In this document: piece after piece, positions 58,015 through 64,000 of the stretch
Layout of the letters: every line of letters begins with the position of its first letter
Numbering within the stretch: the stretch's first letter is position 1
Source: Hysterangium stoloniferum
Lineage: Eukaryota; Basidiomycota; Agaricomycetes; Hysterangiales; Hysterangiaceae
Length of the DNA stretch: 64,000 nucleotides
Direction of reading: 5' to 3'
Assembly (NCBI GenBank): GCA_015178975.1
Contig: WHVD01000165.1
Span: 114,158-178,157 of the forward strand
Notes under the pieces: model-generated
Told to the model about the DNA's origin: nothing
Database searches by the model: none
What the model saw: the letters and a program-made list of their open reading frames with translations, nothing else
Position numbers and translations under genes: made by a program

Positions 58015-58712
58015 TTACGACCGGACAATCCTGCCAGACTCCGGGCACTAACCTGTATGCCCCCATGCGCTACAAGCACCAATTGTCTGTTTATAGGATT
58101 TCCCACCCAGACTCCGTTACATCAAGACTTGTTACGTTCGACCTCATTACGACACATATCAGTCACCGGACTTCCCCCGGACTCCGTCTCTGTCTATATC
58201 CGTCTTTGTCCCATGCATCAGTCACCGGACCCCGCTCAGAATCCCATCACCACTCTAATCGAGCCCCGTTCCCATTTTAGTCAAATGACCTGTCACGATT
58301 TAGGACTCCACTCCCGCTCCATTTCCCGTTATGGGTTATGCTTTGTCACAATTCGGACTCCGTTCCATTCCGTCCCATTCCTAACACCAATTTGGTGTTT
58401 ACTATTCCCGTTTTATATTTTGTTAGTTTCGTTTCATCATTACTGGATTTGGTATGTCATTCACTCTATGGTCTATATAAACTGGCAGATGTTGTACATA
58501 CAATCCAGTCAGAAAATTAGCTTAGATTCCCCCCAGTAATCTAATAACATTTTCTGCTCTAAACCCTTGCTTGATTCACATTGCTTTCACTAGTCGGAGC
58601 CCACAGGCTCTGGCACATCTATCTCTCTCAACTATCTCAACTCACGACCCACGACCTCCGACTTACGACCCATGACCCCCGACTTACGACCTACGACCCA
58701 CGAACCCCACCC
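58015..58712 (+). repeat. LTR of the E1 family (E4), 3'-truncated
   Basis: TGTTACGACCGGACAATCC onward aligns with the minus-strand LTR at 60878-60060, with CpG in E1 often TpG or CpA here. A TATATAAA box lies at 58475-58482. 58628-58705 is a ~10-nt tandem repeat (TACGACCCACGACC type), expanded compared with E1. The alignment ends at CGAACCCCACCC, so about 120 bp of LTR end is lost. Confidence 0.85.
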
Positions 58713-58859
58713 AGTGTAGAGAGTTCAATCGGAAAGAGACTAATATGGCAATAGTTTCAAGTCACGTCACAGCACAAATTCTTATATATACTTTGGCACT
58801 CAAGACGACTTCTACACAGCCAAATCAGTTTTATCAAACAGACGACCAAAACTCCATCA

Positions 58860-59332
58860 TGTTCAACACTGCATCGTCCTCCAAAGTAACCCTCAGTTCC
58901 TACTCGAAACCGACTCTTCACTCCCAAATAGAACTCCAGCCAATAACGTCTCGCTTCTCCTCATCCTCAGACATCATTTCCAAGCCCCTACCAGCCCACT
59001 CATGCTCCTCCAAGAAATACCATCGTTTCCTCCGTCGACAAGGTATTCGACTCCCATATGCTCCAGACGATCCTGTCTTCATTCGTATAGAGCACTATGA
59101 TGGCTCCTCCGAAATCCTCCACTATCGATTCGATCGAGTGTTCCACCAGGACTGTTCCCCACCGTCATCGGGAATCTATTACATGGCAACGTTCACTCCA
59201 GTAGGAGATCACAGAGGACCCAAGTTATTTAGGACCCCGGTTCCAGAGGGAAGTCAAGTAGAGCCTCGTCGAGGTCGTCGTCAATTCGTGTTCCTTGCGT
59301 GGTTGTGGAGCCTACTCACCACCTGGTTCTAA
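58860..59332 (+). CDS. Small hypothetical protein (157 aa)
   Basis: The frame is open from 58745, but a TATATATA box at 58784 favours the ATG at 58860 (MFNTASSSKV). The Ser-rich N-terminus leads to a basic segment (KKYHRFLRRQGIRLPYAPDDP), an acidic-aromatic middle (FIRIEHYDGSSEIL) and an aliphatic C-terminus (FLAWLWSLLTTWF). C-rich third codon positions suggest real coding. I recognise no family. It sits between LTR fragments, so it may be retroelement cargo or a small host gene. No intron is evident. Confidence 0.45.
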
Positions 59333-60059: not shown

Positions 60060-60878
60060 TGTTAGGATACACACTCAGGCCGGGTTTCCGGAGAAACCCG
60101 CGGGATATCCGGTAGGACTTGGCTTCAGCTTATAGGCTGCGCCCTCGCTAGATCGTGTTGTCCAATTTCAGACAGGCGGACGGGAATCCCGGGGAGTCCG
60201 GGCGGGGGTTCGTGGGTCGTGAGTCGTAGGTCGTGAGTCGAGAGTCGTGAGTCGAGATAGTCGAGAGAGATAGATGCGCCGGAGCCCGCGGGCTCCGACT
60301 AGTGCGAGCGGTCTGATGAGAGTAGGGTTTTAGAGAGGAAAATGTATTAGATTACTGGGGGGAATCTAAGCTAATTTTCTGACTGGATTGTATGTACAAC
60401 ATCTGCCAGTTTATATAGACCGTGGAATGCATGACATACCGAATCCAGTAATAATGAGACGAGACGAGCAAAACATAAAACGGGAATAGTAAACACCAAA
60501 TTGGTGTTAGGAACGGGACGGAACGGAGCGGAGTCCGAATCGTGACAAAGCATAACCCATAACGGGAAACGGAGCGGGAGCGGAGTCCTAAATCGTGACA
60601 GGTCATTTGACTAAAACGGGAACGGGGCTCGATTAGAGCGGTGACGGGATTCTAAGCGGGTCTGGTGACTGATGCGTGGGACGAAGACGGACATAGACAG
60701 AGACGGGGTCCGGGGGAAGTCCGGTGACTGATATGTGTCTTATGAGGTCGAACGTAACGAGTCTTGACGTAACGGAGTCCGGGCGGGAAATCCTATAAAC
60801 AGACGATTGGTGCTTGTAGCGCGTGGGGGCGTACGAGTTAGTGCCCGGAGTCCGGCGGGATTTGTCCGGGTCGTAACA
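60060..60878 (-). repeat. E1 3' LTR (819 bp)
   Basis: Minus strand: TGTTACGACCCGG at 60878, TATATAAAC near 60418, a GTCGTGAGTC-type tandem repeat at 60212-60266, the TATAAGCTGAAGCCAAGTCC motif at 60116-60136, and the end GTATCCTAACA at 60060. It aligns with E4 (58015-58712). Confidence 0.9.
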
Positions 60879-60936
60879 GTATCCTCCCTTTATGCCGAAG
60901 TCCCAAAGAGGCTCTAGACCTAAATAAGGTTCTTGT

Positions 60937-61036
60937 CGGCTACGCGCATGTGTCAAAAGTCATGTCGGTTACACGTATGTGTCAAAGAGTCATGTGATCT
61001 GGAAGGTAAGGTTCAAACGCGACGAGCCTATATAAA
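60937..61036 (+). promoter_or_regulatory. Promoter of the antisense gene: two tandem 29-30-bp blocks and TATA
   Basis: 60937-60965 and 60966-60995 are tandem copies (CGGCTACGCGCATGTGTC / CGGTTACACGTATGTGTC, each followed by AAA.AGTCATGT). TATATAAA lies at 61029-61036, 53 bp before the ATG. One block copy, the GATCTGGAAGGTAA box and the TATA box are conserved upstream of the antisense gene in E3 (37310-37365) and, degenerate, in E2 (29800-29850). This promoter lies in the element but outside the LTR and points into it. Confidence 0.65.
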
Positions 61037-61088
61037 AAATTGAAAAAATAGAAATTTCTTCTTCTTTATTACCCCCATCTTCGTCACT

Positions 61089-62071
61089 ATGGGACCAAAA
61101 CCAACACCACGCAAACCAATGCCGACAGCAGGGCCCTCCACGGGCACTCCGTATCGGGCGCCGTGGACGGCGGCCCAATTGTTGGCGCGGCGAGAAGAGC
61201 AGCGCCAGCTTCGTGAAGCAGCAGAGAGAGAGGCGAGGGAGGCTGAGGAGGCCCTGGACAAGGAGTACCAGGAAGCGTTGGCCGCGGAGGAAGAGGCCGC
61301 AAAGGAGAGGGAACGTGAGGCGGAGGAGGCTGCGCGAGTGGCCGCGGAGAACGCCCGGGTGGCTGCGGAGAAAGCCCGGTTGGCCGCGGAGAGGGCCGCC
61401 ATTGTTGCGGGAAAGGTAAGTCCCAAATTCACTTGTCGATTGTTTACTGACTTGTGATTTTCAGCGCAAAGCGACAGAGGTGGAGTCCGAGTCCGAGGGG
61501 GAGCCAGAGAGCCCCCAAAAGGTAGGCCTCATGTCCATGGAATACCCGCGGAGACTGACCAACTCAACAGAAGGCAAGGAAGGCGGCGCCAGTCCGTCTT
61601 CCGACGCGGAACGAGCCACGGTGTTCCGGTTGCAACGACCGGAACACGGAATGCAACCGAAAGGCCGGCCGGGGGCCGGGATGTTATCAATGCGCGCACC
61701 TCAAGGCGAGGTGCTCGCTTGTGCACGAGCAGGCCACGGGATCCGGGGCGCGAGACATAAGCGGGACGGACGGGTTGTCCGGGTTGGACGAGGTCCTTGG
61801 ACGGATCGCCGAGGGCATCGAGGCCCAAAACGAGTTGCTCCGGAAGAGCAACAAAGTCCAAATTGTGGTGGCAAAGGAGCTGTCCGGACTCCGCGAGGAG
61901 TTTTGGAAGTTCCTGGCGGAGTATGGCGGCTATGTCTTTGAAGAGCCGCAAGTCGGGAGTTCCGAGGATGCCGGATCGGATGAGGACGGGGTTGCCGCGG
62001 AGGTCGCGGAGCTCCCAGAGGAGATAGCTGAGGAAGCAGGGAAAAAGAACAGTCCCATAAATGTAGACTGA
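61089..62071 (+). CDS. Antisense accessory protein of E1: coiled coil plus Zn2Cys6-like cluster (294 aa)
   Basis: Exons 61089-61415, 61465-61521 and 61571-62071 join in phase 0 to 295 codons with stop. The introns (49 nt each) have GTAAGT...TTTTCAG and GTAGGC...CAACAG borders. Residues 1-25 are a conserved start (MGPKPTPRKP...), 35-105 a Glu/Ala/Arg-rich coiled coil, and 110-127 an acidic exon. Residues 146-176 hold C-X2-C-X6-C-X9-C-X2-C-X6-C with basic residues in the second half (CAHLKARC), the exact spacing of fungal Zn(II)2Cys6 DNA-binding clusters. The C-terminal part has a second helical segment (LDEVLGRIAEGIEAQNELL) and an acidic tail. A poly(A) signal AATAAA lies at 62085. The gene converges on pol, whose stop is at 62282. 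Nuclear DNA binding or nucleic-acid chaperoning is my inference; the partner is unknown. Confidence 0.82.
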
Positions 62072-62281
62072 AAAAGTAGTATAGAATAAAAAATAATTTG
62101 AATTATAAAAGCAAAGCGTGAAAGAAAAACATAAAAATTAAAAGTCAAAGCCAAAGTCCGCGGGGAATCCGCTTGAAGACTTGACAAGACATGTCTGAAC
62201 CTGTAAAAGCAAAGAGAGACATAGGGCGACAGGGAATAGTGAAAATGAGTCCAAACGTAACACGGGGTCCGCGGAGTGCGG

Positions 62282-64000
62282 TCAGAGAGACGATAATGGT
62301 CCAGGTTTGAGTGGGTAAGCTGTATGAAAGTCAGTAACAATTTCCGTGGCATTACCGAGTTCCGTGGCCAAAATCCATGAGGTTTCTTCATCGGTGCCCT
62401 CGTAACCCGCCCACTTGACCAAGTAAAGCAGTTTACAAGTGCGTCGACGCTTGTCAATTTTTGAATCTAAAATCTGAGAGATTTCAAACTCGGGTTCTCC
62501 GTCAATGACGACAGGAGGAGGCGGAGATTGCACGCGATCCGGGATAGTGTTAGCAGTACAAGGTTCTAGCATAGAGACATGAAATACCGGGTGTACCGCG
62601 CGCATGCTATCCGGAAGCCGTAGAGTCCAAGAAACTGAACCTACTTGTGCGATAATTTCAAAAGGACCTAAATATTTTTCAGCAAGCTTCTTTGATGGAC
62701 GGGTAGTCCGGAAGAATTGAGCTTTGACATAAACACGGTCGCCAATCTTGAAGTTTGGTGGCGGGATCCGGTGTTTGTCCGCTGAATGTTGGTATTGCTC
62801 TTGGGCAGACAATATTGCAGTCCGGAGTTCCTCGTGGAGCTCGTGGAGGTCCGTGGTGAACTCTTGAGCACGAACAGAGGCGAGATTTCGTTCTGGATGT
62901 ACTGTAATATTTGGATTATATCCTTTATTTGCAAAGAACGGGGAAACGCCAGTAGTGGCCGAGGGTGCGTTGTTGTAAGCAAATTCTGCAAGTGGTAACA
63001 AGGTTTTCCAATTGTCCTGTTGATAGTTGCAATATACGCGGAGGTACTGTTCCAATGTCTGGTTGACGCGTTCGGTTTGTCCGTCACCTTCCGGGTGATG
63101 TCCGGACGTGAAATGTAATGTCATGTCCAAGGATTTTCCGAGGGATCTAAAGAAGTGAGACACGAACTCTGATCCTCGATCGGAAGTCACGTGGGACGGA
63201 ACTCCGTGCTTGGAAAATACGTGGATAATAAAAAGTTCCGCTAACTGCACGGACGTAATTGTATCGTAAGTAGGGATGAATATACCTTGTTTTGAGAATC
63301 TGTCAACAACGACTAGGATAGCGGAAAAGCCTTCGGAATCCGGCAGGTGTTCAATGAAATCCATAGATATAGAATTCCACGGGTGTTCCGGTACCGGGAG
63401 TTGTTTCAAAAGGCCGTATGGCTTGTGTCGCTGAGATTTCGAGCGGGGACAAGTAGTGCAAGATTTACAATAGTGCTTAACGAATCCACGGAGTCCGGGC
63501 CAAGTATATTCTCTTCTTATTAATGATAGAGTCTTGTTGTACCCGAAATGTCCTGAGAGTGGATGATCATGTTTGTATTGAAGGATCCTGAGGTGGAGGC
63601 CGTCGGAGTCCGGTACATAGATCCTATCGTCAAGTCTAATGAAACCATGTTGATCAAGAGACCACCGAGGTTGATCGGGGTCCACGGGATTGTCCAGATG
63701 AGCTTTAGTAACTGGGTCTAGCGGAATTGCCGATAGAATATCTTGATGTAACTTCTCGATATCCATAATGATAATTCCACGGACAATGGGATTGACGAGG
63801 AAAGTTGCGCGGACCGATGCGGTAAGTTGTTGATTCGTGAAGATAGGTTTCAGGTTGTGCGGATTTACCGTTGCATAGTCGTTGCTCCCCTCTTTAGGAT
63901 AGACGTCCCATCGTCTAGTTAAAGCGTCGGGTTTGCCGCCGAGACGGCCGGGTCGAAAACGGATAATCATGTTGAAGGCGGAGAGATATTCAGACCAGCA
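62282..64000 (-). CDS. E1 pol, 3' part: RNase H end, integrase, chromodomain (partial)
   Basis: The frame is open from the window edge to TGA at 62282. At the edge it reads the end of RNase H (SEYLSAFNMIIRFRPGRLGG). The integrase HHCC module (H-D-H...GHFGYNKTL...YCKSCTTCPRSK) lies at about 63455-63570. The catalytic Asp, Asp and Glu are in MDFIEHLPDSE, TSDRGSEF and GDGQTERVNQ (63360, 63175, 63065). A GPF module (KYLGPFEIIAQVGS) lies near 62655. The C-terminal chromodomain (FEISQILDSK...CKLLYLVKWAGYEGTDEETSW, 62360-62490) classifies it as a chromovirus, which directs integration to modified chromatin. No stop or frameshift is seen. Confidence 0.93.
   Translation of the reverse strand, partial: CWSEYLSAFNMIIRFRPGRLGGKPDALTRRWDVYPKEGSNDYATVNPHNLKPIFTNQQLTASVRATFLVNPIVRGIIIMDIEKLHQDILSAIPLDPVTKAHLDNPVDPDQPRWSLDQHGFIRLDDRIYVPDSDGLHLRILQYKHDHPLSGHFGYNKTLSLIRREYTWPGLRGFVKHYCKSCTTCPRSKSQRHKPYGLLKQLPVPEHPWNSISMDFIEHLPDSEGFSAILVVVDRFSKQGIFIPTYDTITSVQLAELFIIHVFSKHGVPSHVTSDRGSEFVSHFFRSLGKSLDMTLHFTSGHHPEGDGQTERVNQTLEQYLRVYCNYQQDNWKTLLPLAEFAYNNAPSATTGVSPFFANKGYNPNITVHPERNLASVRAQEFTTDLHELHEELRTAILSAQEQYQHSADKHRIPPPNFKIGDRVYVKAQFFRTTRPSKKLAEKYLGPFEIIAQVGSVSWTLRLPDSMRAVHPVFHVSMLEPCTANTIPDRVQSPPPPVVIDGEPEFEISQILDSKIDKRRRTCKLLYLVKWAGYEGTDEETSWILATELGNATEIVTDFHTAYPLKPGPLSSL

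Follow-up and report, generated by a model that had tools for sequence, protein, structure and literature searches.

Open reading frames (ORFs) that lie antisense to the element between pol and the 3' long terminal repeat (LTR) are an established class of accessory genes in plant retrotransposons, where the function of the type named aORF-3R is given as unknown (PMC7264820). ORFs of Retand elements were described in 2025 as having a predicted DNA-binding domain (PMC11963269). Antisense ORFs are not confined to plants, from which a first-pass annotation of the locus studied here had known them: the fungal gypsy element Boty of Botrytis cinerea carries the antisense gene brtn (PMC7264820, PMC8365987, PMC4227169). 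In the VANDAL transposons of Arabidopsis, VANC proteins act against silencing through dense motifs that share one orientation (PMC5735166, PMC10398659). Within a window of 64,000 nucleotides (nt) from the genome of Hysterangium stoloniferum (Hysterangiales; 111 Mb, 554 contigs) we identified an antisense gene in a chromodomain gypsy element. The gene belongs to the known kind of antisense accessory gene represented in plants and by brtn of Boty. New features are its introns, a zinc-cluster-like motif, deep alleles that have one backbone in common, and an element rich in CpG in which CGG-N3-CCG and CGG-N5-CCG repeats are in excess. A literature search that was not in depth and covered few subscription papers turned up no retrotransposon with an antisense gene that is spliced or encodes a zinc cluster.

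Re-reading of the sequence reproduced the gene model of the first-pass annotation in full: the exons, the two 49-nt introns, the product of 294 amino acids (aa), and the six-cysteine spacing are all exact (Table 1). The three exons join in frame to give 885 nt, and the cysteines of the motif are residues 146, 149, 156, 166, 169, and 176. For comparison among copies, 108 genomic loci were aligned with the window; removal of 13 duplicate rows (among them L019 and L020, other genomic places that carry the sequence of L007) and of the row for the window's own place (L001) left 95 distinct copies. The start codon is retained in 93 of these. Intron 1 begins with GT in 94 copies and ends with AG in 93, and intron 2 has each signal in 94. 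Exon lengths are mostly multiples of three (exon 1 in 86/95 copies, exon 2 in 90/95), and this is true of far fewer introns (26/95 and 23/95, respectively). Intron 1 ranges from 48 to 72 nt (it is absent in one copy) and intron 2 from 47 to 52 nt; a branch-point-like CTRAY motif occurs in the last 30 nt of intron 1 in 80 copies and of intron 2 in 94. The flanking signals that the annotation had named fared differently. The TATA box stands, and the CT-rich stretch downstream of it is conserved in nearly all of the aligned rows shown (L053 is the exception). AATAAA within 60 nt of the stop codon is the weak point of the gene model, being found in 67/95 copies overall and in 24/44 of those with less than 92% identity.

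Intact genes, defined by at least 285 aa, an ATG, and GT-AG in both introns, make up 41 of the 95 copies. The ratio of nonsynonymous to synonymous rates (dN/dS) is 0.13 to 0.36, at dS of up to 1.09, in 55 pairs among 11 intact representatives, which were picked to span the divergence; the pairs are not independent. The highest value, 0.36 for the window and L077, lies near the neutral edge, and the other 54 pairs are at or below 0.31. Neutral simulations of the window's gene, run with and without tenfold CpG mutability and with stops disallowed, give mean values of 0.55 to 0.76 and a lowest single value of 0.37. There is no sign of positive selection in the overall dN/dS. Summed over comparisons of the window's gene with the other ten representatives, differences amount to 6.3% of sites at codon position 1, 6.1% at position 2, and 18.8% at position 3; in the same comparison the intron bodies differ at 24% and 21%, the splice signals at 8.7%, and the leader at 7.7%.

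Coding of this region on the sense strand of the element was considered and rejected: the mirror frame contains stops in exon 3 in 40 of the 41 intact copies. It is the only other frame in which dN/dS is low (0.11 to 0.41), because its third positions coincide with those of the gene, and the gene's own frame has the lower value in 15 of 16 exon comparisons. Because splice sites, start codon, and frame are kept, dN/dS lies below that of neutral simulations, and the mirror frame is stopped, we regard the locus as almost certainly a functional protein gene under purifying selection, antisense to its element. The earlier proposal had been staked on homologues in other copies of the element and on a dN/dS away from 1; such homologues are many, and the ratio lies below the neutral range, so that both outcomes favour the gene.

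The predicted protein begins with a proline-rich part, followed by a long Ala/Glu coiled coil, a basic KRK...KKARK stretch, and the Cys6 motif; behind the motif come another helical stretch and a tail that is acidic (the coiled-coil, basic, and helical labels were assigned by eye from the sequence). Between the window and L073, the deepest intact allele, identity is 85% over residues 143-181, which include the motif, 83% over the first 30 residues, and 69% over the whole protein. The exact spacing of the six cysteines occurs in 39 of the 41 intact copies, with L045 and L078 as the exceptions. Zn2Cys6 domains, which bind two zinc ions and recognize CGG triplets arranged as inverted repeats with a set distance between them, have the spacing C-X2-C-X6-C-X5-12-C-X2-C-X6-8-C, and the motif fits it. 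The label "Zn2Cys6-like" is thus borne out by spacing, but not by the Pfam score, which remains below the cut-off, nor by the alignment, in which the first CX2CX6C half matches positions 16-31 of the Zn_clus profile, the second half of that domain. The second half of the motif, CYQCAHLKARC, seems closer to the canonical DNA-reading first half, as in Gal4. It is possible, from these alignments, that the half-motifs stand in swapped order. Five pieces containing half-motifs had no Pfam match.

Other database matches are few. Weak Pfam matches to TAF4, DUF5539, and ANTH (E values of 0.056 to 1.3, below the cut-off) were taken as chance, and two weak talin matches in the PDB concern the helical part. 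A search of a set of 5.8 billion proteins, in part of which only 8000 candidates were scored because the coiled coil shares common words, found no homologue outside H. stoloniferum; this absence is weak evidence, because genes of this sort are probably lost to repeat masking when genomes are annotated. The three matches, all from H. stoloniferum (BU17DRAFT_80596, BU17DRAFT_86143, and BU17DRAFT_102139), are fragmentary relatives annotated as hypothetical proteins. The intact 294-aa product was not found among public records, probably as a result of repeat masking, and a scan of viral contigs detected no relative.

In old copies the gene is more divergent than the backbone that carries it. We compared the window with the 30 "old" copies (at least 6% fourfold-site difference in the gene) that have at least 250 nt of matching pol. 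At fourfold sites these differ from the window by 42% in the gene (transversions 18.1%) and by 15.6% in pol (transversions 4.1%). Corresponding differences are 12.9% in the LTR, 5.8% in the leader, and 10.2% in the spacer to pol, although LTR and flank values are biased low because they come from best local matches. The contrast between gene and backbone is strongest in the L073 group: the window and L073 differ at 19/357 positions of the LTR (one transversion) and 24/393 of pol, versus 76/327 of exon 1 (36 transversions) and 120/498 of exon 3. For other old copies the gap is smaller, because their LTRs are 20-27% different. CpG decay was rejected as the sole cause of the extra divergence of the gene, since transversions are raised as well. 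The gene is thus present as deep alleles carried by a common backbone, a mosaic that would most simply have arisen through recombination during reverse transcription. In some copies (L087, L010) the divergence from the window changes abruptly partway through exon 3, suggestive of recombination breakpoints inside the gene.

The window stops at the contig end, so the 5' half of its own element copy is missing. A more complete copy of about 8.1 kb, L109 (C235:467600-477500), comprises an LTR, gag, protease, reverse transcriptase, RNase H, integrase zinc domain, SH3, chromodomain, the antisense gene, and a second LTR. Reverse transcriptase, RNase H, integrase, and a C-terminal chromodomain are all present, as in gypsy chromoviruses. 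The pol frame of L109 is interrupted; a 1304-aa open frame is found in a number of other copies. Between the two LTRs of L109 there are 17 differences in 819 positions, and the flanks show no clear target-site duplication. At least 133 places in the genome scored for the gene and at least 110 for pol. Of 53 loci, all of them retrieved via the gene itself, 51 have a pol match beside the gene, always in one relative orientation; L041 and L050 are without one.

Table 1. Features of the antisense gene and its element in the window (positions are those of the window; fractions refer to the 95 distinct copies)
Feature	Positions	Strand	Remark
Antisense gene, three exons and two introns	61089-62071	+	Flanked by pol and 3' LTR; the element, a chromodomain gypsy, is on the minus strand
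TATA box, TATATAAA	61029..61036	+	From sequence; TATA(A/T) in 93/95 copies
CT-rich stretch between TATA box and ATG, likely transcription start region	61055..61079	+	Start site putative
Exon 1, N-terminus and coiled coil	61089..61415	+
Intron 1, 49 nt, GTAAGT..CAG	61416..61464	+	CTGAC, branch-point-like site
Exon 2	61465..61521	+	57 nt in 89/95 copies
Intron 2, 49 nt, GTAGGC..CAG	61522..61570	+	CTGAC site
Exon 3, Cys6 motif, second helical stretch, acidic tail, stop TGA	61571..62071	+
Cys6 motif, residues 146-176, C-X2-C-X6-C-X9-C-X2-C-X6-C	61622..61714	+
AATAAA, possible polyadenylation signal	62085..62090	+	In 67/95 copies
3' LTR of gypsy element, TG..CA on minus strand	60060..60878	-	Recurs as LTR pair in copy L109
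Putative polypurine tract, AAAGGGAGGA (minus strand), adjoining LTR	60882..60891	-	Assigned by position
Three CGGACTCCG sites in LTR, CGG-N3-CCG class, from 60529, 60773, and 60846	60529..60854	- (element sense)
pol, 3' part: integrase (H2C2, rve), SH3_Tf2-1, Chromo	62282..64000	-	Cut by contig end

At 58027-58708 of the window there is another LTR of this family, inverted relative to that of the element and 91% complementary to it over the longest arm; no internal region was recognized with it. Between the two LTRs is a 195-aa ORF (58745-59332, plus strand). By eye it resembles a 166-aa frame downstream of pol in a gypsy element that served as a control (L114, C441:1414600-1416900), with which it has QPNQF, SSSKVTL, and RLPYAPDDPVFI stretches in common. 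This ORF is perhaps part of another mobile element.

The CpG content of the element is high relative to the sequences compared. Gag-pol has an observed-to-expected CpG ratio of 1.10, and the LTR one of 1.35. This ratio is 0.50 in the first 57.9 kb of the window; 0.32, 0.34, 0.23, and 0.65 in four copia pieces, which were chosen for their long open frames from 150 listed of 1270 candidates; and 0.04 in the pol part of the control gypsy, which has a 1298-aa frame. In the 1.1 kb after pol, the control gypsy has neither a CX2CX6C motif nor such an antisense gene. Copies of the family do decay. Of 19 copies compared, the seven with the most decay have TG or CA at 57-74% of the CpGs of the window, and C-to-T changes outside CpG amount to 6-10%. 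This signature is as described for basidiomycete transposons (PMC4352252), and the genome contains two partial matches to DNA_methylase. The family is thus exposed to CpG decay, yet its recent copies are CpG-rich.

Most of the element's CpGs are within CGG or CCG. In L109, counted with one LTR (7276 nt), CGG-Nn-CCG occurs 2, 2, 2, 21, 7, 24, 5, 11, and 2 times for n = 0 to 8. Shuffles of Markov orders 2, 3, and 4 (150 each) give means of 1.6 to 5.2, with maxima of 13 for n = 3 and 11 for n = 5. Among 960 trinucleotide inverted repeats with spacings of 0-14, CGG-N5-CCG ranks 1 and CGG-N3-CCG 2 (1 and 3 in gag-pol alone). The sites of both spacings fall in all three codon phases; 5 N3 and 3 N5 sites are in the LTR, and 11 N3 and 16 N5 in gag-pol, and the excess extends over the antisense gene as well. 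Some words are oriented. In element sense CGGANNNCCCG occurs 12 times and CGGGNNNTCCG not at all; by region the former is found 7 times in gag-pol, 2 in the LTR, and 3 in the antisense gene, versus 0 in reverse. Similarly, GGACTCC is oriented 12 to 0 in gag-pol plus LTR, and 1 to 1 in the gene. Controls for these counts were the first 57.9 kb of the window, which would be unfair as the sole control because it is CpG-poor, together with shuffles and other elements. A codon-shuffle control used one frame across gag-pol and, downstream of gag, therefore does no more than shuffle triplets locally.

The CpG and CGG-repeat data favour self-recognition or anti-silencing as the role of the protein. 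Self-recognition is suggested because a zinc-cluster-like protein, CGG repeats of two spacings, and freedom from the CpG erosion of the other elements examined are features of one family. We tentatively propose that the protein works against silencing by binding CGG sites throughout the element that encodes it, much as VANC does, and consider this possible, with more doubt than conviction. The accessory gene, with its two introns, would be transcribed from its own TATA promoter opposite gag-pol. Its product may be a nuclear, dimeric zinc-cluster protein, as the basic KRK..KKARK stretch, coiled coil, and Cys6 motif suggest, and would bind CGG-N3-CCG and CGG-N5-CCG along the DNA of its own element. 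Binding would protect replicating copies from CpG methylation and leave them open to transcription; copies that lose protection would become methylated and decay at CpG. A fuller version is more doubtful: that the antisense zinc-cluster protein reads oriented CGG repeats in both LTR and coding sequence, shielding copies from CpG methylation, with the code embedded in gag-pol and ancient alleles exchanged between backbones.

A number of observations weigh against the proposed mechanism. Zn_clus (PF00172) scores of 8.0, 9.6, and, for the whole 43-residue motif, 15.1 bits are below the gathering cut-off of 21, and no PDB sequence matches the Cys6 motif. The site statistics come from the single copy L109. 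When all 31,200 trinucleotide pairs are ranked, CGG-N5-CCG is 2nd and CGG-N3-CCG 6th (2nd and 12th in gag-pol); the top pair is the contiguous CCGTGG/CCACGG. CGG-N7-CCG is raised too, with 11 occurrences in L109. CCACGGA and TCCGTGG, with 7 and 6 occurrences, are unoriented, and the orientation of CGGANNNCCCG is partly favoured by composition: the sense strand of gag-pol is 27.3% A, 27.5% C, 20.2% G, and 25.0% T, and this A+C richness favours the observed orientation but does not dictate it. Orientation on the sense strand fits recognition of RNA as well. The CGG sites lie in coding sequence, unlike the targets of VANC, and the deep alleles have fewer of them in the gene. Genome-wide totals, which include copies of the family, are 21730 N3, 10802 N4, and 15635 N5 sites. 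C1:269888-277346 has 24 N3, 9 N4, and 3 N5 sites among the matches listed, and a similar N3 series occurs at C1:25110-31964. These stretches are probably copies of another CGG-rich repeat; because it has many N3 sites, neither the CGG-N3 excess nor CpG-rich DNA is unique to the family. The CpG controls are five elements, chosen for their long frames. Finally, young copies lose CpG as well, as seen in the LTR pair of L109, where 10 of the 17 differences are at CpG.

In the first of three main alternatives, the protein would simply regulate transcription from its own LTR, as an activator or a feedback repressor, like retroviral Tat or HBZ of human T-lymphotropic virus (HTLV), in which case the CGG sites outside the LTR would be incidental and the CpG richness due to other causes. 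Its position, own promoter, and antisense polarity recall gene23 of Grande and the antisense gene of HTLV (PMC7264820), and the LTR carries sites of both spacings. However, most CGG sites lie outside the LTR, in gag-pol, and the Cys6 motif is kept even where LTRs are 20-27% apart, so that we consider this role rather unlikely. It is improbable, though the orientation of CGGANNNCCCG and GGACTCC speaks for it, that the repeats act in the genomic RNA, in packaging, dimerization, or nuclear export, bound by Gag or a Rev-like accessory protein. A hairpin at the core CGGANTCCG would be poor, its loop being a single base, and a function in RNA leaves the family's lack of CpG depletion unexplained. 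Furthermore, a shared orientation is also found in the DNA sites of VANC (PMC5735166), and CCACGGA/TCCGTGG has none.

CpG richness and CGG words could also be unrelated to the protein, having come from another host by horizontal transfer or from a bias in codons or in composition. No relative outside the species turned up in the protein search, which would allow a foreign origin of the family, and both the other CGG-rich repeat and the equal enrichment of CCGTGG/CCACGG fit such an inheritance. The deep subfamilies and strongly decayed copies indicate long residence, however, and shuffles that preserve 5-mers give only about 4-5 sites versus 21-24, with all codon phases used; we judge this origin improbable as well. 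That antisense RNA rather than protein is the functional product seems highly improbable: such RNA can work through double-stranded RNA (PMC7264820), but purifying selection operates at the amino acid level and exon lengths keep the frame. Still harder to credit is that the ORF arose by chance, or was taken from the host not long ago, and has no function in the element. The lack of homologues outside the family would suit it, but pol adjoins the gene in nearly all of the 53 loci and dN/dS is low even at the highest dS.

The introns provide an unambiguous marker for the mRNA of the antisense gene. Given selection on the protein, a candidate DNA-binding motif, candidate sites in the same element, and CpG methylation that can be measured, the function of an antisense accessory gene becomes directly testable here. 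The system could show how a retroelement stays CpG-rich while the other elements examined are CpG-poor. If the proposed binding and protection are true, this would be a self-recognizing anti-silencing system of a retroelement.

Compared with PF00172, the protein is alike in its six cysteines, their fitting spacing, and the coiled coil and basic stretches nearby; it differs in its score below the Pfam cut-off and in a first half that resembles the second half of the domain. The gene brtn, reportedly described by Zhao et al. in 2011 and compared here by published description only, is likewise an extra antisense gene between pol and the 3' LTR of a fungal chromodomain gypsy. Its host is an ascomycete, and the excerpts of its descriptions mention neither introns nor a zinc cluster. 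HBZ of HTLV-1, a retrovirus of people, is a bZIP protein whose promoter is within the LTR. Like the gene reported here, it is antisense; its product is a nuclear regulator (HBZ is named in PMC11963269). Grande gene23 has its own promoter and a nuclear product (PMC7264820), as is predicted for the gene here, and TRP28 of Retand aORF-3R is predicted to bind DNA (PMC11963269). Grande, RIRE2, and Retand differ in being plant elements, Retand belongs to a non-chromovirus lineage, and the domains described are TRP28 or SMC-like, not Cys6. VANDAL elements are Mutator-like DNA transposons, not retroelements. The motifs of VANC are in non-coding tandem repeats, and loss of methylation has been shown for VANC, whereas the measure here is observed-to-expected CpG only. 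As a proposed analogue in mode of working only, VANC has in common with this system an element-encoded factor and, perhaps, dense short motifs of the same orientation in its own element.

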